A stretch of 64,000 nt of DNA from Candidatus Latescibacterota bacterium (lineage in GTDB: Bacteria > Latescibacterota > UBA2968), in NCBI GenBank assembly GCA_022824945.1, contig JAJDYX010000015.1:1-64000 (forward strand). The letters are read 5' to 3'. Both the position numbers and the translations under genes were made by a program. Position 1 is the first letter of the stretch. Every line of letters starts with the position of its first letter. The notes below the pieces were generated by a model. That model worked only from the letters and a program-made list of their open reading frames with translations. It was not told the DNA's origin and searched no databases. Shown piece by piece: positions 4,693-18,023 of the stretch.

Positions 4693-5364
4693 ATGATAAA
4701 AATAGCAAAGGTCGAAAAACGTTTCAAGAGTCCAGGACCGCAGCCAAATGGCTTGCAAGCCGCGCCGGATGGCCTTTGGATAATTGACCAGGTAGATCTG
4801 AAAATATACAAAGTAGATTGGGAAACCGGCGACGTGCTATTTGAGGCGCAAACAGACACAGAGCATTCGAGCGGGATTACCGTCGGTGGTGGACATGTGT
4901 GGATCGCATCCACATTTGAATTGCAAATAGCAAAACTCGATATGAAAACCGGCAAAACCATTGCAAAATACGATTCTCCCGGCGTTGGCGTCGCATCCTG
5001 GCGTGAAGGCATGCCGGGTGCCTCGGAAACTGGCGCACACGGACTGGAATGGCGCGACGGTAAAATTTACATTGCGTCTCCACCCTCGCAATTTGTACAT
5101 GTAGTAGATGCCGAGACATGGACAGAAGAACACGCATTTCGAACCCCTGGACTCCGTAACCACGGATTGGCCTGGCAAGACGACAAATTATGGGTAGCGG
5201 ACACATCCGCAGGCACCGTAAATTTACTGGGCACAGCAGATGGTCGCGTGTACGACGTCATCCGCGTAGAAGCGCCCGATGAAGTACACGGCATGACCAT
5301 GCACGACGGCGTCCTGTGGTACTGCGACGCACACAATTGTGCTATCGGTCGATTGATTGTCTAA
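4693..5364 (+). CDS. Small beta-propeller protein (YncE/SMP-30-like)
   Basis: A 223-residue protein without a signal peptide. It has repeated strand patterns typical of propeller folds: GLWIIDQVDLKIYKVD, GHVWIASTFELQIAKLD, GKIYIASPPSQFVHVVD, DKLWVADTSAGTVNLL and GVLWYCDAHNCAIGRL, giving about five blades at 40-45 residue spacing. Conserved Asp and Trp residues end several blades. Related propellers include lactonases and quinoprotein-like sensors, but no active site can be assigned. The ATG follows AGGAG at about 4680. The gene stands alone, divergent from the PBP operon. Confidence 0.8.
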   Translation: MIKIAKVEKRFKSPGPQPNGLQAAPDGLWIIDQVDLKIYKVDWETGDVLFEAQTDTEHSSGITVGGGHVWIASTFELQIAKLDMKTGKTIAKYDSPGVGVASWREGMPGASETGAHGLEWRDGKIYIASPPSQFVHVVDAETWTEEHAFRTPGLRNHGLAWQDDKLWVADTSAGTVNLLGTADGRVYDVIRVEAPDEVHGMTMHDGVLWYCDAHNCAIGRLIV

Positions 5365-5494
5365 GTTACGAGAAAAAATAAACCGCGAGGGTTTCCCAAG
5401 AATCTGTGCGTTCATCCATCTATAGGGAAAGGTTGAATTGCTATCTCATTTGTACAACGGCCCTGCCTCTCCCTGCTCCTCATGAAAAATAATA

Positions 5495-8400
5495 ATGGAC
5501 AATAACCTTTTGTTTCCAATATCTGGAATCCGCGATAACCACAATCGGGGCACAGTGGGCGAGTTTCTCAAGTCCAAAATCCAGGAAGGCTCATCGCTTT
5601 CTATCGTATCAGCGTATTTTACGATTTATGCTTTTGATGCGCTGAAAGAATCTTTGAGCGGAATTGATGAGCTTCGGTTTTTGTTTGGTGAACCGCGTTT
5701 TGTCAAAAGTCTCGACCCGGAAAAGATAGACAAAAAAGCCTTTCAAATTGAAGACGAAGGCTTGCAACTTCAGAATCGGCTGGAACAAAAACGTGCTGCT
5801 AAAGAATGCGCTGAGTGGATGAAGAAAAAGGTACAGATTCGTTCAATCAAAGCACAGAATCTGTTACACGGGAAAATGTACCATATTGCTCATAACGGCA
5901 TAGAAGATGCCATTATGGGCAGTTCCAATTTTACTGTGCGCGGGTTGGGGCTGAGTCAGACAAGTAGTAATATCGAACTCAATCTGGAGGTGGATAGCAA
6001 CCGCGACCGCCTCGATCTAAAAGCGTGGTTTAATGAACTCTGGAATAACAAAGAACTGGTCGAAGATGTCAAAGCGGATGTGCTGTCATATCTCGAGCAA
6101 CTCTATCAGAATCACGCGCCAGAATTTATCTACTACAAGACCTTGTTTCACATCTTTGAGCAGTATCTGGGAGAACAGGAAGGTAGCGAGTTATTCACCG
6201 AACAGAAGCAATTCCTTGATACAGAGATTTGGAACGCCCTGTTTGAATTTCAGAAAGATGGTGTGAAGGGCGCTATCAACAAAATCCGTCAACACAACGG
6301 CTGTATCATTGCCGATAGCGTTGGCCTGGGCAAGACCTTCGAGGCCCTGGCAGTGATCAAATACTTTGAAATGGAAAATGACAGAAACAGAATCCTCGTT
6401 TTGTGTCCCAGAAAACTGCGCGATAACTGGACAATTTATCAAGCGCATAATCATAGCGAACTGAATCCCTTCCGCAATGACAACTTCCGATACACAGTCC
6501 TGTCACACACAGACCTGAGCCGAAATAGCGGCAAATCGGGAGACATTGATCTGGCGACCATAAACTGGGACGACTTCGATCTGGTTGTCATTGATGAGTC
6601 GCACAACTTCCGAAACAACACACCGGACAAGCGAGACGAGGAAGGCAATCTGATTACCAGAAGCCGCTATCAACGGCTGATGAAGGATATTATCCGGAGT
6701 GGAGTCAAAACCAAAGTTTTGTTGCTTTCCGCCACGCCAGTGAACAATGATTTAAAAGATTTACGCAATCAGATTTATTTTTTTACTGAAGATCGCGATG
6801 ACGCTTTCCGCGAATCACTCGGTATTGTTAGTCTAAAAGAAACGCTGGCAACCGCGCAACGCACCTTTACGGAATGGGCAAAGCAGAGCAATGAAAACCG
6901 CCAAACCTCTGCCTTGCTGGAACGGCTCAGTTCGGCATTTTTCAAGTTGCTTGATGAGCTGACCATTGCCCGTTCGCGAAAACATATTGAAAAATACTAC
7001 CGGGATTCGCTTAAAGAACTCGGTGGTTTTCCAACTCGAAGTAAGCCTATCTCGGTTTCTCCCGATATTGACCTGAAGAACCAGTTTATGTCTTACGACG
7101 AACTGAATGATGAAATCTCTAACTATCAACTTTCCTTGTTCAATCCTTCAAAATACATCCTTCCGGAATACCAATCCCAATACGATACTCGGCAAATCCG
7201 AAACTTTACACAAAGTGACCGAGAACATTATTTGATTGGCATGATGAAGGTGAACTTTCTCAAACGGCTGGAAAGTTCTGTTCATTCATTTGCCATTACA
7301 ATGCAGCGTACGATTGGAAAAATTGAGGCACTGGAAAAACGAATTAGACAGTTTCAAGAATTCCGTGATGACAACCCCGATTTGGATTTGGAAGAGATCG
7401 AAATTGAAGCCCTTGAAGACGAAGAATTGCAGGAAGCAATGCAGGTGGGGAGAAAACTCGTCTTCAAAATGGCGCATCTCAATGTTGATAAGTGGCTGGA
7501 AGATTTGAAGCGCGACAAGGAACAGCTCGAGTTGCCTTACCTTTTCGCAAAGGACATCACCCCTGACCGCGATGCCAAACTCGCCAAACTGAAAGAACTT
7601 ATCTCAGAGAAAGTCAAACATCCGACAACCGACAAGCACGGGCAGCCAAATCGCAAGGTATTGGTCTTCACCCACTTTGCCGATACCGCCACATATCTCT
7701 ACAACGCTCTGCATCAATGGGCAACCGATGAGTTGAGGATTCATCTTGCAATGGTATCGGGAGGTTCCGAGAATAAGACGACCTTTGGCAGAAATGAATT
7801 CAGCCACATTCTGACTAACTTTTCTCCAGTTGCAAAAAAACGCGACCAGATGAAATCCCTGCCACAAGATGATGAGATCGACTTGCTGATTGGCACAGAT
7901 TGTATCTCCGAAGGACAAAATCTGCAAGACTGCGATTATTTGATTAACTACGATATTCACTGGAATCCAGTACGGATTATTCAACGATTTGGGCGGATTG
8001 ACCGCATCGGTAGTATCAATCACAGTGTTCAGCTTGTCAACTTCTGGCCGACATCTGACCTCAACCGCTACATCAACCTGAAAAATCGCGTTGAGGCACG
8101 CATGGCACTGGTAGATATCGCTGCAACACAGGAAGACAATCTATTGGAGCCAGAGAATATTCGAGATGTGGTTACTGAAGACCTGAAATACCGCGACAAG
8201 CAACTTCAGCGTTTACAAGAAGAAGTATTAGATCTTGAGGATTTTAACGAAAACATTGCGCTTAATGAATTTACCCTCGATGATTTCCGCATAGGACTGA
8301 TGAAGTATCTTGAGAGCAATCGACAAATCCTTGAAGATGCACCATTTGGACTTTATGCCGTTGTCCCACCGAAACCGAGTCCGATAATTGACAATGGTGT

Positions 8401-8812
8401 TGTTTTCTGTTTGCGGCAGAAAGAGGATTCAACGGAAAACGAAAAGATCAATCCATTGCAGCCCTATTTCCTCGTCTATATTCGGGAAGATGGCGAAGTG
8501 CGTTTTACCTTTGCCCAACCCAAACAGATTCTCGATATGTACCGTCAGCTTTGCGAGAATGCGAAAAACCCGTATGAGGAACTGTGCGCCCTATTCGACA
8601 AGCAAACAGACAACGGCGCAGATATGACGCAATACAACGACCTGCTTGAGAAAGCAGGTCGTTCACTCGGTCGCACCTACCAGAAACGCGCTATCGGCAA
8701 TCTTTTATCTGGTCGAAGTGGTGTCCTGCCCAAAAAACAACAACAGGTCAGCCAAACTACAGATTTTGAACTCATTACCTGGCTGGTGATCAAATCGGAA
8801 AATCAACAATGA
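5495..8812 (+). CDS. PLD-like nuclease domain fused to SNF2-type helicase
   Basis: A 1105-residue protein. The N-terminal domain (about 10-190) is phospholipase D-like, with an HGKMYHIAHNG motif near 125 and GSSNFT about 20 residues on, the HxK...GSxN signature of PLD-family nucleases. The helicase follows: Walker A ADSVGLGKTFEA near 273-281, DEAH-type box VIDESHNF near 366, SATPVNN near 411, and motifs V-VI GTDCISEGQN and QRFGRIDRIGS near 800-835. About 270 residues follow motif VI with no named domain recognised. It overlaps the methyltransferase gene by 4 nt (ATGA), implying translational coupling. SNF2/PLD proteins beside methylases occur in restriction-like defence systems such as DISARM, where PLD and SNF2 are usually separate proteins. 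No clear Shine-Dalgarno precedes the ATG. Confidence 0.9.
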   Translation: MDNNLLFPISGIRDNHNRGTVGEFLKSKIQEGSSLSIVSAYFTIYAFDALKESLSGIDELRFLFGEPRFVKSLDPEKIDKKAFQIEDEGLQLQNRLEQKRAAKECAEWMKKKVQIRSIKAQNLLHGKMYHIAHNGIEDAIMGSSNFTVRGLGLSQTSSNIELNLEVDSNRDRLDLKAWFNELWNNKELVEDVKADVLSYLEQLYQNHAPEFIYYKTLFHIFEQYLGEQEGSELFTEQKQFLDTEIWNALFEFQKDGVKGAINKIRQHNGCIIADSVGLGKTFEALAVIKYFEMENDRNRILVLCPRKLRDNWTIYQAHNHSELNPFRNDNFRYTVLSHTDLSRNSGKSGDIDLATINWDDFDLVVIDESHNFRNNTPDKRDEEGNLITRSRYQRLMKDIIRSGVKTKVLLLSATPVNNDLKDLRNQIYFFTEDRDDAFRESLGIVSLKETLATAQRTFTEWAKQSNENRQTSALLERLSSAFFKLLDELTIARSRKHIEKYYRDSLKELGGFPTRSKPISVSPDIDLKNQFMSYDELNDEISNYQLSLFNPSKYILPEYQSQYDTRQIRNFTQSDREHYLIGMMKVNFLKRLESSVHSFAITMQRTIGKIEALEKRIRQFQEFRDDNPDLDLEEIEIEALEDEELQEAMQVGRKLVFKMAHLNVDKWLEDLKRDKEQLELPYLFAKDITPDRDAKLAKLKELISEKVKHPTTDKHGQPNRKVLVFTHFADTATYLYNALHQWATDELRIHLAMVSGGSENKTTFGRNEFSHILTNFSPVAKKRDQMKSLPQDDEIDLLIGTDCISEGQNLQDCDYLINYDIHWNPVRIIQRFGRIDRIGSINHSVQLVNFWPTSDLNRYINLKNRVEARMALVDIAATQEDNLLEPENIRDVVTEDLKYRDKQLQRLQEEVLDLEDFNENIALNEFTLDDFRIGLMKYLESNRQILEDAPFGLYAVVPPKPSPIIDNGVVFCLRQKEDSTENEKINPLQPYFLVYIREDGEVRFTFAQPKQILDMYRQLCENAKNPYEELCALFDKQTDNGADMTQYNDLLEKAGRSLGRTYQKRAIGNLLSGRSGVLPKKQQQVSQTTDFELITWLVIKSENQQ

Positions 8813-11800
8813 ATGATATACAATACAAACAGAAAATCTCTGATGCTTTACAACGCTTCCCAAGCGGTGAATTATCCAAAAATGCTGTTCATCTTCTCGA
8901 TGTGTTAGGCTATCGGAGCGATAATCAGATTGACCTCGGCTCGAATCATCCCGATGCGTTCTTTGCAGAGTATGATCAGCAAGGAAATCTCAATCGCGAT
9001 AAATTACTGTCCGCAGATTGGGATTCCATTGACCTGCTTTTCCAACTCACAGGCGATGACCTCACGCTTTCGAATCAACGCGGCTGGCGTTTCGATTCCA
9101 ACGTGAAGCAAGTGAATAATACAATCATCGAGTCATATCTGTTCTTTGCGCTACAACTACGAAATAACAATTACACTCGCACACAACTTTCTCAGATTAC
9201 CCGTGAAATCAACAAATTGTTCCCAATGCCGGTAATGCTTCTTTTTCAGCACGATCAGACTCTAACCTTCTCAATTATTGACCGGCGTCTGCACAAGCGC
9301 GATGAGTCCCGTGATGTTCTCGAAAAAGTGACGCTGATTAAAGACATTGATTGCAGTAAGCCCCACCGCGCACACATTGAAATCCTATTTGGCCTTGCCC
9401 TCGAACAATTGCACAAAACACACGACGTTCACAACTTTGTCGAACTGCATCAGGCTTGGAAAAAGACACTGGATACTTCCGAACTCAACAAGCGGTTCTT
9501 CAAAGAAATTGCTGACTGGTATTTTTGGGCGGTTGATCAGGTGACATTCCCAGCTGATGTGGAAAAAGATAAGAAGATTCGTAACGCCACGAATGTTATC
9601 CGCTTGATCACGCGGCTAATTTTTGTGTGGTTTATAAAGGAAAAAGGATTGGCGCAAGATACGCTTTTTATCAAAAAGGAGATTGATAAAATCCTCAAAA
9701 ATACCGATCCCCAGGAAAGTTCCTATTACAAAGCGATTCTTCAAAACCTTTTCTTTGCCACACTCAATACAGAGATGAAACCTGATAACCGCAAGTTCAG
9801 GCATCGAGCCAAGCAATCGGGAGGACGCGACCAGCACTACATGGTGCATTCTCTTTATCGATATGAGCGGTATTTCAAACATTCCAAAAAAGCACTCGGT
9901 TTTTTTAAGGAAATTCCTTTTCTCAATGGCGGTTTGTTTGAGTGTCTGGATAAGCCCGGCAAAGACAACTCCAAAAAGATCCTGCGCGTTGACGGCTTTT
10001 CTGATCGCAACGACAATCAGCTACATGTTCCCAATTTTCTGTTCTTTTCCGACGAACAAAGCGTTGATCTCAACGCGGCTTACGGCACAAAGGGTAAGCG
10101 CTATAAGGTGCGCGGGCTGATTAATATTCTCGACCGTTACAAATTCACGGTAGCTGAGAATACGCCTATTGAAGAGGAAGTAGCTCTTGATCCAGAATTG
10201 CTCGGCAAAGTTTTTGAAAACTTGCTTGCCGCATACAATCCCGAAACGAAGACAACTGCTCGCAAGTTGACCGGCTCTTTTTATACGCCCCGCGAAATCG
10301 TCAACTACATGACCGACGAATCGTTGATTGCCTATTTCAAGTCTGTCCTCATTTCATCTTACGAACCTAAAAGTGCTCTGTCCGCAACAACGCCACCTTC
10401 GCAACTGGATCTCACTGGTCAAACAGAGCCGGTACAATCTCAGCTTGATATACAAAAAAGATCGCTATTTGATAAACAAAAAGCCTTAATCGAAAATAAT
10501 CTCCGCCACTTGATCACCTATAATGATGAACCTCCCCGATTTAGTGGCGAAGAAACCGAGCAGTTAATCAAAGCCATTGACGATCTCAAAATTCTCGATC
10601 CCGCTTGTGGTTCAGGCGAGTTCCCCATGGGCATTCTGCGTAAACTGGTTTTCATCCTCGGAAAACTCGACCCGGGCAACGACCAGTGGAGGAAGCGACA
10701 AATTGCCAGAGTTGAAAGTACCATTGAGACAGCAGAAAAAATTGACGACAGCACAGTTCGTGAAAACACCATCCGCGACCTTGAAAAGGAAATCGACAAT
10801 ATCAATGAGGCTTTTGAACGGAACGAACTCGACTACGGGCGCAAACTCTACCTGATCGAAAACTGTATCTATGGAGTCGATATTCAGCCAATAGCTGTAC
10901 AGATTTCCAAACTTCGTTTCTTTATTTCGCTCATCATAGATCAAAAAATAGACGATTCAAGAGAAAACCGGGGCGTTCGACCATTGCCCAATTTGGAAAC
11001 CAAATTTGTCGCAGCCAATACACTTCTCAGTGTGGATAAACCCGCACAAATTTCCATCCGCAATCCACAAATTGACGAAAAGGAAAAGGAGTTGAGCGAA
11101 GTGCGGAGAAAACACTTCATTGCCCGCACCCCAAGAACCAAAGCCAAATACCGTGACCAGGACGACCGAATCCGTGCTGAAATCAGTGAGTTGCTAAAAC
11201 GCGATGGCTTTCCCAGTGAAACTACTGAAAAGATCGCCTATTGGAATCCTTATGATCAAAATGCGGCTGCCAATTTCTTTGACCCAGAATGGATGTTTGG
11301 TATCAAGAATGGATTTGATGTCGTGATTGGAAATCCGCCGTATGGTGCTAAAATTGACCGCAGCGACTTGAACAAGATCAAAGCCAATGTCCAAGACACG
11401 AAAAATTCAAATAGTGCGGCATTGTTTGTTGATTATGCCAAAAACCGTTTAATTAGAGCTGATCGTCAAAGTGGTATTGTAGCTTTTATTCTTCCTAAAT
11501 CTCTATTGTATTCCGAAAAATGGCATGATTTAACTTTTGCTCTATTAGAAAAGACAGTGGTTTTAGTGGATGTGGAAAATGCATTTGAGAAGGTCAAATT
11601 GGAGCAAGTTGTTGTTATTTATTTTGCACAATGTGATGATACTTTTTATGTCGGACGCAAGTTTCTAAATAATATTTTCTTACGAACGACTCATATAAAT
11701 AAAAATTACCCCAACCTGTTTCAAGCCTGGATATGTGATGTCTCAGGTGATGAAATTAACCTTGGCTCAAAAATTGCCGATGTAGGGACGTGTCTGGGAA

Positions 11801-12420
11801 ACATTTCGAAGACAACAAGAGGACTACCGATACAAAGGTCTCTTGCTCCACGCGGTGATATTCAGGTGATTGGAGGAAAAGAGATAAACCGATATGGCGT
11901 TGTAGGCGTCAAAGGGTTTGTAAAACGTGACTATTTGGACTTGACAAATCGCAAAGTTCAACTCTTGCGACAACCGAAAGTAATTTCTCAAAGGCTTGTG
12001 GCGCATATTCAAAACCCTCAGCCTCATATCAAAATAACTTCAACTGTTGATAAAACAGGCGACATATTGAGTGTTGATACCGTGGAAAATACGATCATTA
12101 CAGATGAAAACTTCAGTCCATTTTTCATCTCAGCCCTTTTTAATTCGACACTCATAAATTGGTACGCTTACAAGTTCATTTTTTGCTCAGCAATCAGAAC
12201 CATGGACTTTGATAACTACTATGTAGGCAAAATTCCCATTCCTGTTGCTACATCTGACCAACAAGTCCCGATTGTTGAGTTAGTTGACCATATCCTAATA
12301 ACCAAAGCGACTGACTCGGATGCCGACACCAGCGAGGAGGAAGCGGAGATAGATCAATTGGTCTATGCACTGTACGGACTGACGGAGGAAGAAATTGCTA
12401 TTGTGGAGAAAAGAGAATGA
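8809..12420 (+). CDS. Eco57I/type IIG-like N6-adenine DNA methyltransferase
   Basis: A 1203-residue protein with the gamma-class N6-adenine methylase signature. GSFYTPREIVNYM lies near residue 488, the SAM-binding motif I ILDPACGSGEF near 593-603, and the catalytic motif IV IGNPPYGAKI near 838-847. The roughly 480 residues before the catalytic core are mostly helical, and I see no unambiguous nuclease motif there. The C-terminal part (about 870-1165) resembles a TaqI-like target-recognition domain, ending with YYVGKIPIPV. Together with the helicase this fits a restriction-modification-like system in which the methylase marks self DNA. It starts inside the stop of the helicase gene and ends with a 4-nt overlap with the TIR gene. 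Bases coding for the recognition domain are visibly more AT-rich than the rest. Confidence 0.92.
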   Translation: MNDIQYKQKISDALQRFPSGELSKNAVHLLDVLGYRSDNQIDLGSNHPDAFFAEYDQQGNLNRDKLLSADWDSIDLLFQLTGDDLTLSNQRGWRFDSNVKQVNNTIIESYLFFALQLRNNNYTRTQLSQITREINKLFPMPVMLLFQHDQTLTFSIIDRRLHKRDESRDVLEKVTLIKDIDCSKPHRAHIEILFGLALEQLHKTHDVHNFVELHQAWKKTLDTSELNKRFFKEIADWYFWAVDQVTFPADVEKDKKIRNATNVIRLITRLIFVWFIKEKGLAQDTLFIKKEIDKILKNTDPQESSYYKAILQNLFFATLNTEMKPDNRKFRHRAKQSGGRDQHYMVHSLYRYERYFKHSKKALGFFKEIPFLNGGLFECLDKPGKDNSKKILRVDGFSDRNDNQLHVPNFLFFSDEQSVDLNAAYGTKGKRYKVRGLINILDRYKFTVAENTPIEEEVALDPELLGKVFENLLAAYNPETKTTARKLTGSFYTPREIVNYMTDESLIAYFKSVLISSYEPKSALSATTPPSQLDLTGQTEPVQSQLDIQKRSLFDKQKALIENNLRHLITYNDEPPRFSGEETEQLIKAIDDLKILDPACGSGEFPMGILRKLVFILGKLDPGNDQWRKRQIARVESTIETAEKIDDSTVRENTIRDLEKEIDNINEAFERNELDYGRKLYLIENCIYGVDIQPIAVQISKLRFFISLIIDQKIDDSRENRGVRPLPNLETKFVAANTLLSVDKPAQISIRNPQIDEKEKELSEVRRKHFIARTPRTKAKYRDQDDRIRAEISELLKRDGFPSETTEKIAYWNPYDQNAAANFFDPEWMFGIKNGFDVVIGNPPYGAKIDRSDLNKIKANVQDTKNSNSAALFVDYAKNRLIRADRQSGIVAFILPKSLLYSEKWHDLTFALLEKTVVLVDVENAFEKVKLEQVVVIYFAQCDDTFYVGRKFLNNIFLRTTHINKNYPNLFQAWICDVSGDEINLGSKIADVGTCLGNISKTTRGLPIQRSLAPRGDIQVIGGKEINRYGVVGVKGFVKRDYLDLTNRKVQLLRQPKVISQRLVAHIQNPQPHIKITSTVDKTGDILSVDTVENTIITDENFSPFFISALFNSTLINWYAYKFIFCSAIRTMDFDNYYVGKIPIPVATSDQQVPIVELVDHILITKATDSDADTSEEEAEIDQLVYALYGLTEEEIAIVEKRE

Positions 12421-14720
12421 GCGACCCCTTAAAAGTATTCATTACTTATTCGCATGAGAATCCAGACGCAAAGGACGAATTGATAAAGCACCTTGCAGTA
12501 ATGATACAACAAGGCTTGATAAATATTTGGCATGATAACGAAATCCTCCCAGGCGACAGGTGGTATGAAGATATTTCCAAAAATCTTAATGCTTCGGACA
12601 TTCTGCTCTACCTCGTCTCTGCCGCAAGTCTTGCCTCTGTGAACTGCAACAAGGAATTGGGCGAAGCATTAGACGTCAATATAAAAGTCATCCCCATTAT
12701 TCTTGAGAGTTGCGATTGGTTAAATCATGAACTCAGCGACTTTCAAGCTCTTCCAGACAAAGGCAAGCCTATTAACGAATGGGCCCCTGAGAGCAAAGGC
12801 TGGCAAAATGTGGTGGACGGTATCCGAAAAGCCGTTCAAGAAATGCAGTCTCAAGTCTATGAGACTACAACAAAAGAAACATTACCTGAGTGGGTGTTCC
12901 AACAGGGTAACTTCTTTCTAATGATAGGGCAGATAGACAGGGCGATAGAAGCTTACTCACACGCAATCGAATGCAACCCGCACAATGCCGAATTTTATAA
13001 CAATCGTGGCAATGCTTACGGCAGCAAAGGCGCGTATGACCATGCCATCGAAGACTTCAACACCGCCATAAAACTCAAACCCGAGTATCCCATAGCCTAT
13101 AGCAATCGCGGCAGTACTTACAGCGATAAAGGTGCGTATGACCGTGCTATTGAAGACTACAACAAAGCCATAAAACTCAAACCCGATTTGTTCATAGCCT
13201 ATAATAATCGCGGCGATGTTCACAGTAGAAATGGAAAGTTTCAGCGCGCCATTGAGGACTACAACACCGCCATAGACCTGAACCCGGATTACGCCGATGC
13301 CTATAACAATCGCGGAAATGCTTACGCCGAAAAAGGCGCGTATGAGCGTGCCATCAAAGACTACAACAAAGCCATAAAACTCAAACCTAATTTGGCTATA
13401 GCCTATAACAATCGCGGCAGTGCTTACGGCAGGAAAGGCACGTATGACCGTGCCATCGAAGACTTCAACACCGCCATAAAACTCAAACCAGAGTATCCCG
13501 AGGCCTATAACAATCGCGGTAGTGCTTACCGCGACAAAGGCGCGTATGAGCGTGCCATCAAAGACTACAACAAAGCCATAAAACTCAAACCTGACTGTGC
13601 CGAATTTTATAACAATCGCGGAAATGCTTACGGTAGAAATGAAAAGGTTGAGCGTGCCATTGAGGACTACAAAAAGGCCATAAAAATAAATCCGGATTAC
13701 GCTGATGCCTATAACAATCGCGGCAGTGCTTACGGCAGGAAAGGCACGTATGACCGTGCCATTGAAGACTATAACACCGCCATAAAACTCAAACCAGACC
13801 GTGCCGAATTTTATAACAATCGCGGCAGTGCTTACCGCGAAAAAGGCGCGTATGAACGTGCTGTTGAAGACTACAACACCGCCATAAAACTCAAACCCGA
13901 TTTGACCATAGCCTATAATAATCGAGGTGCTGCTTACGCTGACAAAGGCGAGATTGACCTGGCTATTGAAGACTATAACACCGCCATAAAACTCAAACCC
14001 GAGTATCCCGAGGCCTATAATAATCGCGGAAATGCTTACAGCAATAAAGGCGCGTATGAACGTGCTGTTGAAGACTATAATAAGGCGATAAAACTCAAAC
14101 CAGACCGTGCCGAATTTTATACCAATCGCGGCATTGCTTACCGCAGAAATGAAAAGGTTGAGCGTGCCATTAAGGACTACAACAAGGCCATAGAAATAAA
14201 TCCGGATTATGCCGAAGCCTATAACAATCGTGGTGCTACTTACATCGGCAAGGGTGAGCCTAACCGTGCTATCGAAGACTACAACAGGGTAATAGAACTA
14301 AAACCGAATTATGCCGAAGCCTATTACAACCGCGGAAATGCTTACCACGATAAAGGCTCGTATGACCGTGCAATCAAGGACTTCAGTAAGGCCTTAGAAA
14401 TAAATCCAAGATTTGTCATAGCCTATAACAGTCGCGGTGCTACTTATATCGGCAAGGACGAGCCTGACCGCGCTATTGAAGACTACAACAAGGCCATAGA
14501 ACTGAACCGAGACTATGCCGAAGCCTATTACAACCGCGGGGAAGCCTGGTTGCACTTGCAAAATTGGCAAGAAGCCAAAACAGACCTGATAGTTGCCAGG
14601 GGCAAGGGCGTAGATATTATCAAGGTATTTTGTAATGATTACCAAAATGTTGAGGAATTTGAGCGGAGATATGGTGTAAAATTGCCGGAAGACATTGCGG
14701 CAATGCTGACGCAAAGGTGA
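12417..14720 (+). CDS. TIR-domain protein with 17 tetratricopeptide repeats
   Basis: A 767-residue protein. Residues 1-140 form a TIR_2-type domain: KVFITYSHENPDAKDEL, then ILPGDRWYEDI, DILLYLVSAASL and NCNKELGEA. Glu80 sits where TIR NAD hydrolases carry the catalytic glutamate. From about 157 to 735 there are 17 TPR units of 34 residues (AYNNRGNAYGRKG, AIEDYNKAIKLKP), followed by a short tail ending YGVKLPEDIAAML. Bacterial TIR proteins commonly act as NAD-depleting effectors or as second-messenger producers. A TPR array would suit sensing or scaffolding. The gene overlaps the methyltransferase stop by 4 nt, so it is co-expressed with the methylase-helicase pair. NADase activity is inference. 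Confidence 0.9.
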   Translation: MSDPLKVFITYSHENPDAKDELIKHLAVMIQQGLINIWHDNEILPGDRWYEDISKNLNASDILLYLVSAASLASVNCNKELGEALDVNIKVIPIILESCDWLNHELSDFQALPDKGKPINEWAPESKGWQNVVDGIRKAVQEMQSQVYETTTKETLPEWVFQQGNFFLMIGQIDRAIEAYSHAIECNPHNAEFYNNRGNAYGSKGAYDHAIEDFNTAIKLKPEYPIAYSNRGSTYSDKGAYDRAIEDYNKAIKLKPDLFIAYNNRGDVHSRNGKFQRAIEDYNTAIDLNPDYADAYNNRGNAYAEKGAYERAIKDYNKAIKLKPNLAIAYNNRGSAYGRKGTYDRAIEDFNTAIKLKPEYPEAYNNRGSAYRDKGAYERAIKDYNKAIKLKPDCAEFYNNRGNAYGRNEKVERAIEDYKKAIKINPDYADAYNNRGSAYGRKGTYDRAIEDYNTAIKLKPDRAEFYNNRGSAYREKGAYERAVEDYNTAIKLKPDLTIAYNNRGAAYADKGEIDLAIEDYNTAIKLKPEYPEAYNNRGNAYSNKGAYERAVEDYNKAIKLKPDRAEFYTNRGIAYRRNEKVERAIKDYNKAIEINPDYAEAYNNRGATYIGKGEPNRAIEDYNRVIELKPNYAEAYYNRGNAYHDKGSYDRAIKDFSKALEINPRFVIAYNSRGATYIGKDEPDRAIEDYNKAIELNRDYAEAYYNRGEAWLHLQNWQEAKTDLIVARGKGVDIIKVFCNDYQNVEEFERRYGVKLPEDIAAMLTQR
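12960..14560 (+). repeat. Tandem 102-bp TPR-coding repeats
   Basis: Sixteen near-regular 102-bp units within the TIR-TPR gene share blocks such as ctataacaatcgcgg and gccataaaactcaaacc. Several units are almost identical over their whole length, for example those around 13400-13500 and 13710-13800. Such homogeneity suggests recent unit duplication or gene conversion. Confidence 0.9.
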
Positions 14721-14757
14721 CGGAGAACGAGATAATACCATCAACAGAGGTGACGAT

Positions 14758-16146
14758 ATGAAAATAAGCGTAAAAAATCTGGGGGTTCTGAAACAGGCGG
14801 ATTTTGAACTGGGCGAATTGACTCTCATTTGCGGCGGCAATAACACGGGAAAAACCTACGCTACGTATGCCCTTTTTGGCTTTTTACAGCGCTGGAAATC
14901 CTTCTTGGAAGTCGAAATTCCCAGTCGGCCTATTAACGCCCTACTGAAGGGAGACGAAACGCAGGTTGATATTACTGTGAAAGCGGATGACATCCTTAGA
15001 CGAGGTTGCCGAACATATACCCGACAACTTTCGAAACTCTTTGCCTCAAGGCCAGAGCATTTCAAAAACACGGCATTTCAAGTGTATCTTGAACCGAAAA
15101 CAATATCATCGATAAAGAGCCGTGCTATTGAGCATATAATACAATTCGCAGAAGGTCCATCTCTCTATCTGGTCAAGGCTAAAGGAGAAGAGGAACTAGT
15201 AATATCTCTTCTGATGGAGGGGGGAAAAAAATCATTGGCCTCTGTTGGGTGGATTAAGGAATTAATCTCAGATAGGGTAATCGAATTGCTCTTCGATAAA
15301 ATTTTCCCCCAGCCTTTTATCGCCAGCGCAGAGCGCACTGGCGCGGCAATTTTTCGCAGGGAACTGAATTTTGCCCGGAATCGCTTACTAAAAGAAATGA
15401 TTCAGTCAGACGAGAACATTGACCCGATGGAATTGTTGTTCAAATCTTACCAAGACTATCCCCTACCGGTCGAAGTCAATGTAGATTTTATCCGAAGACT
15501 TGAGAACATTGCCAAAGAAGACAGCTTTCTTACTGAAAATCATCCGCAAGTCCTGAATATATTTACCGATATCATCGGCGGTGAGTATATCGCGGAAAGT
15601 AATGACACGATCTATTTCAAACCCGCAGGCAAACAACAGAAGCTGACAATGGACGAGAGTTCCAGCGCAGTGCGTTCCCTATTGGACATTGGCTTTTATC
15701 TACGTCATACCGCAAAACCCGGCGACCTGCTGATGATAGATGAGCCAGAATTAAACCTGCACCCGGAAAATCAGTGTCGCATAGCCCGGCTCTTTGCGCG
15801 TTTGGTCAATCTGGGCATCCGCGTCTTCGTGACTACGCACAGCGATTATATTGTCAAAGAACTCAACACCCTGATTATGCTAAATCAGGACAAGCCCTAC
15901 CTGAAGCAAATTGCAGAAGATGAAGGCTACGAAAACGAAGAGCTTATATCTGCCGAAAATATAAGAGTTTATATCGCAGAGGACATGCCGATAAAGCTGA
16001 ATAACAAAAGTAAGCAAAGCCGACCTCAAACACTTGTACCGGCCAGGATAGACCCAGAATTGGGGATTGAGGCACGCAGTTTCGACGATACCATCAACAA
16101 AATGAATGAGATTCAAGACGCCATTGTGTGGGGTGGGGATGAATGA
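14758..16146 (+). CDS. OLD/RecF-like AAA ATPase
   Basis: A 462-residue ABC-type AAA ATPase. Walker A is CGGNNTGKTYATYAL (about 25-39), the signature-like stretch MDESSSAVRSLLDIG lies near 298-312, Walker B is LLMIDEPELNLHPENQ near 325-338, and a switch histidine follows in VTTHSDYIVKEL. The region between the Walker motifs is helical and shorter than in SMC proteins. The end of the protein shows no TOPRIM motif, so it is not a complete OLD nuclease. Such ATPases are sensors or motors in two-gene defence systems, paired with a separate effector. Here the next gene starts inside its stop codon (ATGA) and looks like a nuclease. It lies 37 bp after the TIR gene. Confidence 0.9.
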   Translation: MKISVKNLGVLKQADFELGELTLICGGNNTGKTYATYALFGFLQRWKSFLEVEIPSRPINALLKGDETQVDITVKADDILRRGCRTYTRQLSKLFASRPEHFKNTAFQVYLEPKTISSIKSRAIEHIIQFAEGPSLYLVKAKGEEELVISLLMEGGKKSLASVGWIKELISDRVIELLFDKIFPQPFIASAERTGAAIFRRELNFARNRLLKEMIQSDENIDPMELLFKSYQDYPLPVEVNVDFIRRLENIAKEDSFLTENHPQVLNIFTDIIGGEYIAESNDTIYFKPAGKQQKLTMDESSSAVRSLLDIGFYLRHTAKPGDLLMIDEPELNLHPENQCRIARLFARLVNLGIRVFVTTHSDYIVKELNTLIMLNQDKPYLKQIAEDEGYENEELISAENIRVYIAEDMPIKLNNKSKQSRPQTLVPARIDPELGIEARSFDDTINKMNEIQDAIVWGGDE

Positions 16147-16724
16147 TGTTTGATTTTGACATATTGCAAGACTTGATTAAAACTGAAGCATTGGCCTCCG
16201 TTGAGGATGAATATAACAAAAAGATTATCGTTCTGGAGGAACCCGGCAATCACCAACAATCAGCATATACCCTGACGATACGCAACGTGCCGGATGACAT
16301 TATAGCATTCAAAGCAGATGCTTTTCCTCCTCCAAACAATATTTTCAAAAATAGCAAAGGAGAATGTAAGAGGGCTGATTATGTGGTCATTGCCAGTGAT
16401 GATAGAGCAAACTGGATTGTTCACATAGAAATGAAAAGTGGCAAAGGCGATTCGGAAAAAGAAGTTGAGCAACAATTGCGCGGGGCACAATGCCTTGTTG
16501 CGTACTGCCGCGCCATTGGTCAGGAATTCTGGCAAGAGCCAGCATTTCTGGAAAAAAAGAATTACCAACAGCGTTTTATCAGAGTAAAAAATATAAGAGT
16601 AGCAAAACGACCAACGCTAATAGAGCCAAAATCCGGTCGGCACGACAGGCCGGAACACATGCTGAAAATCAACGCGCCTGCCAGAGGCAGTCTGCAATTC
16701 AAAGAACTGGTTGGAAAGCCTTAG
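16143..16724 (+). CDS. Putative PD-(D/E)xK nuclease partner of the AAA ATPase
   Basis: A 193-residue protein with no family I can name firmly. The centre shows a PD-(D/E)xK-like core: ECKRADYVVIASDD supplies a candidate metal-binding Asp at a strand start, and about 16 residues later WIVHIEMKSGKG supplies the E-x-K pair, followed by a helix with QQLRGAQ. Glu36 in VLEEPGNHQQS may be the helical acid before the core. The 4-nt overlap with the ATPase gene argues for a two-subunit complex in which this protein cuts nucleic acid when licensed by the ATPase. The nuclease call rests on motif spacing only. The annotation as the last gene of the cassette is supported by a 60-bp gap and a change in base composition after it. 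Confidence 0.7.
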   Translation: MMFDFDILQDLIKTEALASVEDEYNKKIIVLEEPGNHQQSAYTLTIRNVPDDIIAFKADAFPPPNNIFKNSKGECKRADYVVIASDDRANWIVHIEMKSGKGDSEKEVEQQLRGAQCLVAYCRAIGQEFWQEPAFLEKKNYQQRFIRVKNIRVAKRPTLIEPKSGRHDRPEHMLKINAPARGSLQFKELVGKP

Positions 16725-16784
16725 TGCAGAGAATGACTGCGCTGAAAAAACAGGTATTTAACCATCTGATAAAGGGAATCCAAA

Positions 16785-18023
16785 ATGACCTCCAAAGACT
16801 GCGAAGTTGCGGATATTGAACACATCCTTCTGCACGTCCCATTTCACCCGCGGTGTGCAAAAGTGAAACAAATTCGGGTACCGTTTTGGTCACTCGTGGA
16901 TGTGTGCAAAATAACGACCTCTGCGGGCGTAACGGGATATGGCGAAACCCTGACGCGCTATACCTGGGGACAATCGAATGAAAAGCAATTTGCCCGTGTA
17001 CGCGGAAAGAACATATTCGATCATTTGTGGGATGACAGCCTGGGCGCGGGCTTGCAAATGGCACTCTTCGATGCAGCGGGAAAAACACTCGGTGTGCCGT
17101 GTCACAAGTTGCTGGGCGTGCAATATCGAGAAACATGTCCCGTATCGTGGTGGGCACAGGATCGCACACCCGAAGACTGGGCTATGGAAGCACAGGCAGC
17201 GATAGACCACGGATTTACGACAATGAAGGTAAAAACACGCCCCTGGTTTTATCCCGCAGAACAACTTGAAGCCATCAGAAAATCTGTACCTAATTATTTC
17301 AAAATCGACGCGGATTTCAACGGTCTATTGCTCGGCGTAGATCAAGCCGCGCCCCTAATCCGGCGATTGGAAGACACGTATAGCCAACTGGCAATGGTCG
17401 AAACGCCAATCCCGCAAAACGACGTCGCGGGCAACGCCCTGTTGCGGGAAAAAATCGCCAGCCCAATCGCCATGCACTTTGGCAATCCGCCCTTTATGAC
17501 AGCAGTGCGCGAAGGCGTATGCGATGGATTTGTCATAGGTGGTGGCGCGAGTCGCGTCATGAAACAGGGCACCCTCGCCGCAGAAGCCAACCTGCCATTC
17601 TGGCTACAACTGGTGGGATCGGGATTGACAACCATGTGGGGCGTGCATTTGGGTGCTGTATTATCTCACGCACGCTGGCCCGCGATCCCCTGTGTGAACA
17701 TCTGGACGCATCCACTCGTCAAAGATTTCAAAGTGGAAGGCGGGCATATACGTGTACCCGATGCGCCGGGATTGGGTATTGAACTCGATTGGGACGTCAT
17801 TGAACGCTATCGCGTTGACCCAGATTTCAAACTCAAAGAAAAACGACAAATACACACAATATGCTGGCCCGACGGACGACAGACTCATTATCCAGACGGA
17901 AGCTATCGCGAGGACTTTCTGGCGGGCAGACTAACGGGCTTTTTACCGGGCATTCGCCTGGAATTAAAACTGGATGACGAATCGGACGCATTTGATCGAG
18001 AATATCGGAAATTATTTGGATAA
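16785..18023 (+). CDS. Enolase-superfamily (mandelate racemase/muconate lactonizing-like) protein
   Basis: A 412-residue two-domain enolase-superfamily protein. The N-terminal capping domain (about 1-125) is followed by a modified TIM barrel. The KxK motif is present (FTTMKVKTRP, Lys147 and Lys149), as are two metal ligands, Asp175/Asp177 in FKIDADFN and Glu206 in AMVETPIP. The third ligand, normally Glu or Asp at the end of strand 5, appears to be His231 (SPIAMHFGN). No His-Asp dyad is evident on strands 6-7. These enzymes abstract a proton alpha to a carboxylate and then eliminate or epimerise acid sugars. It leads a three-gene catabolic operon. AAAGGGA lies upstream of the ATG. Confidence 0.85.
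   Translation: MTSKDCEVADIEHILLHVPFHPRCAKVKQIRVPFWSLVDVCKITTSAGVTGYGETLTRYTWGQSNEKQFARVRGKNIFDHLWDDSLGAGLQMALFDAAGKTLGVPCHKLLGVQYRETCPVSWWAQDRTPEDWAMEAQAAIDHGFTTMKVKTRPWFYPAEQLEAIRKSVPNYFKIDADFNGLLLGVDQAAPLIRRLEDTYSQLAMVETPIPQNDVAGNALLREKIASPIAMHFGNPPFMTAVREGVCDGFVIGGGASRVMKQGTLAAEANLPFWLQLVGSGLTTMWGVHLGAVLSHARWPAIPCVNIWTHPLVKDFKVEGGHIRVPDAPGLGIELDWDVIERYRVDPDFKLKEKRQIHTICWPDGRQTHYPDGSYREDFLAGRLTGFLPGIRLELKLDDESDAFDREYRKLFG

Follow-up and report, generated by a model that had tools for sequence, protein, structure and literature searches.

The stretch of DNA analysed here, henceforth the window, comprises positions 1 to 64,000 of contig JAJDYX010000015.1 (C23:1-64000 in our designations) of a Candidatus Latescibacterota bacterium (assembly GCA_022824945.1, our genome G000, 5.49 Mb in 57 contigs; G and L numbers below denote genomes and loci). 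It contains a cassette of five plus-strand open reading frames (ORFs) coding for a PLD-type nuclease fused to a SNF2 helicase, an N6-adenine DNA methylase, a TIR-TPR protein, an OLD-like ATPase and a predicted nuclease (Table 1). ORF coordinates and Pfam searches recovered what a preliminary description, made without database searches, had noted: the ORFs themselves, the three 4-nucleotide (nt) ATGA overlaps which join the first three genes (8809-8812 and 12417-12420) and the last two (16143-16146), the 37-nt gap between the TIR-TPR and ATPase genes (14721-14757), and the PLD-helicase, methylase, TIR-TPR and ATPase domains. The overlaps are an operon signature rather than a statistical oddity; promoter-like and terminator-like sites occur about as often as in shuffled sequence (22 vs 18.7 +/- 4.4 and 12 vs 12.5, respectively). 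Beyond this gene structure, computational comparison establishes the families and conserved residues of the proteins, the modular replacement of the genes at one chromosomal site and their separate occurrence elsewhere.

Table 1. The cassette, its parts and its flanking genes, in window coordinates
Feature	Position	Strand	Evidence
Left flanking gene, 223 aa (amino acids), bordering the insertion site on the left, outside the cassette	4693..5364	+	Adjoins the right flanking gene or borders the filled site in all 11 genus genomes
Inserted segment, ~11.4 kb	5365..16770	.	None of the five genes between the same flanks in 8/11 genus genomes
HKD/PLD-type nuclease fused to SNF2 helicase, 1105 aa	5495..8812	+	Pfam, PADLOC C3a139, residues, tree
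N6-adenine DNA methylase, 1203 aa: DUF4391-like N-terminal domain (~1-257), Eco57I-type methyltransferase, TaqI_C	8809..12420	+	Pfam, DUF4391 profile, AlphaFold2 (AF2)
TIR-TPR protein, 767 aa: TIR ~7-110, ~15 TPR repeats	12417..14720	+	Pfam, PADLOC ThsB, tandem repeats, alignment
AAA_15/OLD-like ATPase, PDC-M47A / PD-T4-4_A family, 462 aa	14758..16146	+	PADLOC
Predicted PD-(D/E)xK nuclease partner, PDC-M47B family, 193 aa	16143..16724	+	PADLOC, conserved residues, AF2 model
Right flanking gene, 412 aa, bordering the insertion site on the right, outside the cassette	16785..18023	+	Genus comparison

The insertion site and the distribution of the modules

The two flanking genes adjoin each other in the genus, and comparison of 11 genomes, that of the window included, revealed that the site is devoid of all five genes in eight and filled in three (G000, G003 and G004). 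Stop-to-start spacing at the empty site is 15 nt in seven genomes and about 190 nt in G008; insertion is a simpler reading of this pattern than repeated loss, though not a proven one. At the G003 site we found, in order, a helicase, a methylase, a second, inverted specificity domain, a tyrosine recombinase, an ATPase and a nuclease. Identity to the window is 90% for the helicase, 41% for the methylase (residues 1-731), 76% for the ATPase and 82% for the nuclease, and the recombinase (Phage_integrase, 9.7e-17) occupies the position of the window's TIR-TPR gene. The window methylase is instead 85% identical (residues 1-845) to that of a different genome, G001, where the helicase-methylase locus is found elsewhere and the copy of the window's insertion site is empty. 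G004 has only the ATPase-nuclease pair at the site, preceded by a remnant of ~25 codons from the 3' end of a TIR-TPR gene (25 residues at 68% identity), a scar which points to probable loss of the upstream genes in this genome. What these genomes record is modular replacement at one site.

The G003 site spans two contigs, both ending inside the methylase gene; by eye, the two contig ends resemble the two ends of what we take to be an insertion sequence (IS) transposase. No 21-mer occurs both in the terminal 1500 bases of one contig end and in the initial 3000 of the other, in G003 as in G016, so that these joins are argued rather than demonstrated. Separately, the right flanking gene of G003 (G003:C101:24267-25501, L098) is split into two frames with internal stops.

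The ATPase was followed through genome loci of its relatives, the best 80 of 423, together with up to 10 kb of flanking sequence and in many cases less (upstream sequence of at least 5 kb in 63 loci and of at least 9 kb in 46). Within these best 80 of 423, the small partner lies beside the ATPase in 79, the contig of the 80th ending there; a window-type methylase lies nearby in one (G017), and a partial helicase-domain match alone in two. Searches of 100 relatives, G000 included, found the ATPase in 11 (E <= 1e-20), the small nuclease in nine (E <= 0.001) and the TIR in seven (E <= 1e-10). Among the matches listed, the single contig of G008 has the helicase at 1.75 Mb, the TIR-TPR gene at 0.94 Mb and the closest ATPase at 4.33 Mb, and on that of G046 ~0.47 Mb separates helicase from ATPase, the small partner of which is shortened. 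The association of helicase-methylase with ATPase-nuclease recurs within the class, no case having been seen outside it. Among the related loci examined, only the window has all five genes in this order, which speaks against the one conserved five-gene system considered in the preliminary description; its alternative of two adjacent modules is favoured by the constancy of the pair (79 of the best 80) and by the module swaps at the same site.

Protein families, conserved residues and partners

The first protein combines Pfam matches to PLDc_2 (2.9e-09), SNF2 (2.6e-12), Helicase_C (6.1e-14) and RE_NgoFVII (6e-06) and matches the PADLOC model C3a139 'HKD+Snf2' over nearly its full length (5.4e-125); a sequence search of solved structures returned SNF2-family and other helicases only. 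In an alignment of 99 helicases, the putative nuclease residues H125, K127, N145 and E161, which we take to be active residues of the BfiI/NgoFVII type, are all kept in 17 of the 17 methylase-partnered members and, as a set, in none of 81 others (two of them gapped there), most of which stand beside type III Mod/Res. A quick maximum-likelihood tree of 90 of the 99 (nine with an in-frame stop or an alignment of <950 residues were excluded) places the 17 methylase-partnered helicases on one side of a single branch and 73 on the other, with a support of 100 in the SH-like approximate likelihood-ratio test (SH-aLRT); several long branches were flagged.

We examined 15 helicase loci from the class and phylum. 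Twelve have a near-full helicase, and in 11 of them a methylase lies within ~4 kb behind it, the twelfth being L048 (see below). Outside this count are L049, with a broken helicase, and L050 and L051, whose distant helicases (~26% identity) each have a methylase match nearby. Among the helicase loci from IMG/VR, a methylase is present in five of 76; in 52 of the other 71 the helicase is followed by 4 kb of sequence or more, and 51 of these 52 contain Mod and/or Res and 40 the complete set of DUF4391, Mod and Res. The next gene after the helicase is DUF4391 in 10 of 10 plasmid loci, with Mod and Res matches further on; these ten were chosen among 40 listed of 520 records, and some had supplied search queries. 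A simple reading is that the helicase would act as the restriction nuclease where Res is absent, and helicase and methylase together look like the core of a restriction-modification (R-M)-like system. The helicase-methylase loci on IMG/VR viral contigs are L251, L252, L253 and L255, together with L254, which is cut inside the methylase; L255 adjoins, by eye, integrase-like and replication-like genes, and the helicase-methylase unit may thus travel on prophages.

The second protein matches Eco57I (1.5e-21) and TaqI_C (5.5e-06) in Pfam as well as the type IIG models of PADLOC (1.9e-50); the chain has no Pfam nuclease domain, and its head is DUF4391-like. Residues 112-224 score 35.3 bits against a profile made from ten plasmid DUF4391 proteins (14 sequences searched), and the heads of the methylase family are clearly alike among themselves in alignment. 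The N-terminal head (window 8809-9582) gives a confident AF2 model, with a pLDDT (predicted local distance difference test) of 89.9; the methylase has no match at E <= 0.01 among the sequences of solved structures.

A domain like this head is also found fused to sigma-70 factors, in G000:C16 (L045:12292-13914), L041:10861-12498, L042:10764-12473, L043:3837-5477, L046:9301-10941 and, by tblastn, in a sixth locus, L044; the C16 gene belongs to a sister helicase-methylase locus in the window's own genome. In six of the 11 helicase-methylase loci, such a head-sigma fusion gene stands between helicase and methylase. Sigma-70 regions 2 and 4 were recognized in five of the five fusions tested and region 1.2 in four, and the sigma half matches PADLOC MzaA, a protein called a sigma factor in a passage of PMC9523054. 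A search with the head only in 47 class genomes yielded seven frames of 470-574 aa of the sigma-fusion kind, one of them, in G003:C58, by the head alone; none of 325 plasmid matches to the sigma fusion covers 80% of the query, and the 15 matches listed correspond to the sigma half. The methylase is adjoined by a second, inverted copy of its specificity domain in L041:16031-18253, L098:11737-13911 and L038:15071-15766, forming imperfect inverted repeats (71-80%); L041 and L098 also have a neighbouring tyrosine recombinase (62% mutual identity). Such copies might possibly render methylase specificity switchable.

The third protein combines a TIR_2 domain (8.4e-15) with a TPR array, the repeats of which occupy 12985-14539 with a 102-nt period (15.2 copies, 72% match); shifted copies of the array are 73-83% identical in DNA, which may mean recent repeat growth. 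Glu80 of the TIR, presumably catalytic, is invariant in six of six aligned TIRs; the domain has no match at E <= 0.01 among the sequences of solved structures. The four closest relatives (L096, L102, L103 and L104) are located away from helicase-methylase loci, and two further TIRs, from G021 and G059, are 36-37% identical. Three of the four are TIR-TPR-TaqI_C fusions (L096:8764-12545, L102:8707-12821 and L103:10039-14117), L104 being without such a domain, and a link between TIR and DNA recognition is therefore possible. The fused C-terminal domain of ~350 aa (TaqI_C 8e-16 in L096) shares 42% identity with the G046 methylase at its C-terminus and 27-34% with five further members of this methylase family. 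An SMC-like AAA gene then follows each of these fusions, its L096 copy being 66% identical to the AAA behind the G046 methylase; related AAA proteins (27-49%) lie behind the methylase in the IMG/VR loci L252, L253 and L255, and a Nostoc plasmid has a TaqI_C protein plus an AAA. So this chassis of specificity domain and AAA carries either a helicase-methylase or a TIR-TPR protein, and TIR-TPR-TaqI_C with AAA is a possible sequence-reading TIR system.

The ATPase belongs to Pfam AAA_15 (5.3e-26), also matching AAA_21, and matches PADLOC PDC-M47A (1.8e-206, residues 1-459) and PD-T4-4_A (1e-155). Its small partner, which falls into no Pfam family, matches PDC-M47B (6.6e-65) and, weakly, PD-T4-4_B (1.4e-06). 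The preliminary description had known of no arrangement with such an ATPase partner; judging from these full-length profile matches, the last two genes are an already catalogued ATPase-nuclease pair of the PDC-M47/PD-T4-4 type. Among the sequences of solved structures the ATPase found eight ABC-type/AAA ATPases, including UvrA, FtsE, an OLD-family nuclease and the retron Ec78 ATPase, and the small partner nothing below E 0.68. The preliminary description had only suspected the latter of being PD-(D/E)xK-like; when it is aligned with 57 relatives (from 75 extracted), D79, E96 and Q111 never vary, and at least 90% of the sequences have K98. Its AF2 model is a confident one (pLDDT 91.3); at E <= 0.001 it has no counterpart in PDB by Foldseek (best E 0.008), and the weak matches, of low TM-scores, mix BsmI, FokI and BamHI with the unrelated DdmD and adseverin.

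Mosaic island or single system

We favour the reading, to which we assign a probability of about 0.6, that the cassette is a mosaic defence island, the three parts of which are separable and share a single chromosomal insertion site. In the first part, the methylase would mark the host's DNA at sites whose sequence the TaqI_C domain determines, and the SNF2 motor, fused to a BfiI/NgoFVII-like PLD nuclease, would load on unmarked foreign DNA, translocate and cut it; the methylation-based discrimination proposed earlier for these two proteins agrees with their domains. The DUF4391-like head may join the methylase to the helicase, because a free DUF4391 accompanies the sister-group helicases and a similar domain is here fused to the methylase. 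The TIR-TPR protein, translationally coupled to the methylase, is an accessory to the helicase-methylase core; in view of its TIR family and invariant Glu, it would be a nicotinamide adenine dinucleotide (NAD)-consuming abortive-infection arm for cases in which restriction is overwhelmed or blocked, which upholds the earlier suggestion of a TIR as an added arm. The ATPase and the small nuclease would act independently as a PDC-M47/PD-T4-4-type system.

Several observations weigh against this mosaic reading or its parts. L048, a class helicase at 42% identity, is without the PLD residues, and its contig ends at the helicase; in five of the 11 helicase-methylase loci (L038, L040, L042, L043 and L044), the contig stops in or shortly after the methylase. 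The methylase head reaches 23.0 bits against Pfam DUF4391, under the cut-off of 29.9, and its modelled fold has no PDB match at E <= 0.001 (best E 0.07); related methylase and sigma-fusion heads score 3.9-32.5 bits against the DUF4391 profile, several of them at 3.9-14 bits, so that the DUF4391 link rests mainly on the methylases of the window, G052 and G001. The G004 scar puts a TIR-TPR gene beside the ATPase in that genome as well. Finally, helicase-methylase and ATPase-nuclease share one locus in G000, G003 and G017, and perhaps also in G016, in which a contig break separates the two; joint function or linked inheritance is thus possible. This co-location would seem more than chance placement, though defence islands cluster anyway. 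The preliminary description had named homologues that never co-occur as evidence against a single system: separation holds for G008 and G046, where the modules are hundreds of kb or more apart, but not for the genomes sharing a locus.

Helicase, methylase and TIR-TPR protein might instead form a three-gene system, the TIR-TPR protein being licensed by the DNA recognition of the methylase and only the ATPase-nuclease pair being foreign. We consider this possible but unlikely. The 4-nt coupling of the three genes would fit it, as would the TIR gene behind helicase-methylase-AAA in G046, but this latter TIR belongs to another family (PADLOC PDC-S66). The TIR-TPRs of L096, L102 and L103, with their methylase-type specificity domain and the SMC-like AAA behind them, point the same way; yet the TIR-fused specificity domain finds no blastp match at E <= 1e-3 in the window's own methylase, and the SMC-like AAA is absent from the window. 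Moreover, the window TIR is unmatched in the 11 other helicase-methylase loci of the class and phylum, in the 10 plasmid loci and in all 76 IMG/VR loci, the five with a methylase included. Genome-wide, it is unmatched (E <= 1e-10) in eight of the 10 other genomes carrying helicase-methylase loci; at the same threshold, it is absent from four of the genomes with the five broken-contig loci and lies elsewhere in the fifth (G040).

That all five genes make up one integrated system, with helicase-methylase restriction and with TIR-TPR and ATPase-nuclease back-ups sensing its inhibition, appears doubtful to us. Passages of PMC12839542 describe pairs of an OLD-ABC protein and a nuclease that recur as back-ups next to BREX and related loci, and the operon-like gene spacing and the shared loci of G000, G003, G017 and perhaps G016 would be in keeping with such an arrangement; against it, in 79 loci among the best 80 of 423, some of them with short flanks, no window-type methylase accompanies the pair, the modules lie far apart on the single contigs of G008 and G046, and G000 and G003 differ in the methylase and the middle module while the ends stay constant.

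A further proposal, which we rate as improbable, is that the specificity domain serves as a shared targeting chassis for either a restriction or a suicide head, and that, the window having the two heads together in an operon, its TIR-TPR would be a methylation-gated, sequence-specific NADase firing on unmarked sites. Its best ground is the chassis of specificity domain and AAA described above, of which the window has no AAA; searches of open-licence PubMed Central (PMC) papers listed no description of a sequence-specific, methylation-gated NADase trigger. TIR-TPR proteins with a methylase-type DNA-reading domain would connect restriction-modification with NAD-depleting abortive infection. Less probable still is that the methylase serves epigenetic regulation only, the helicase being a remodeller, without any restriction: the inverted second specificity domains of L041, L098 and L038, with a recombinase in the first two, are like those of phase-variable methylomes, but the retention of the putative nuclease residues throughout the methylase-partnered clade and in none of the others, mostly with type III Mod/Res, argues that cutting is under selection.

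Comparison with known systems

The seemingly new five-gene system resolves into known parts, namely the ATPase-nuclease pair, and new parts; no description of the five-gene arrangement was met in the titles and abstract openings listed by searches of the open-licence PMC literature, from which we claim no absence from print. The pair has the 4-nt overlap and the near-full-length matches to both PDC-M47 models, and is here instead placed behind an R-M-like unit. PD-T4-4 was identified, according to part of PMC9519451, in a functional anti-phage selection in E. coli, and a table in the review PMC10952713 lists it under a PF13175 ATPase domain and a PD(D/E)XK nuclease; no paper naming PDC-M47 was found in the open-licence PMC literature. 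The window TIR matches the Thoeris protein ThsB in PADLOC (2.2e-27) and, unlike ThsB, is fused to ~15 TPRs; with no ThsA among the five proteins, we reject membership in Thoeris.

The preliminary description had raised DISARM and helicase-methylase-ATPase (Hma) systems as candidates. The window has an SNF2 helicase, a PLD domain and an adenine methylase in common with DISARM, with PLD and helicase here in one chain. DrmB is unmatched among the five proteins, DrmA matches the helicase at 75 bits through shared helicase domains only, and the NCBIfam DrmD model hits the helicase at 1.2e-46, its 159.5 bits lying far under the cut-off of 610; the DISARM assignment was thus abandoned. Similar in logic are the DUF499-centred, type-2 BREX-related and Hma-like systems, for which passages of PMC12839542 describe an HKD-endoDNase N-terminal on a Swi2/Snf2 helicase together with an N6-MTase (N6-methyltransferase), a combination common to the window. 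DUF499, their core gene, is unmatched among the window's five proteins, the ATPase being of the AAA_15/AAA_21 kind, and we therefore do not file the window as a member, though the logic resembles theirs.

A homologous arrangement is that of the C3a139-type helicase with DUF4391 and type III Mod/Res on plasmids and IMG/VR contigs, where the helicases are ~36-46% identical to that of the window and a DUF4391-type domain comes next. No separate DUF4391 gene, Mod or Res is found among the five window genes, whereas all three are matched in 10 of the 10 plasmid loci; in the window, the DUF4391-like domain is instead fused to an Eco57I-type methylase, and the helicase retains the putative PLD residues. 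The pattern in the examined sequences is a clean one: the putative nuclease residues are kept only with a methylase partner bearing a DUF4391-like head, and not with type III Mod/Res.

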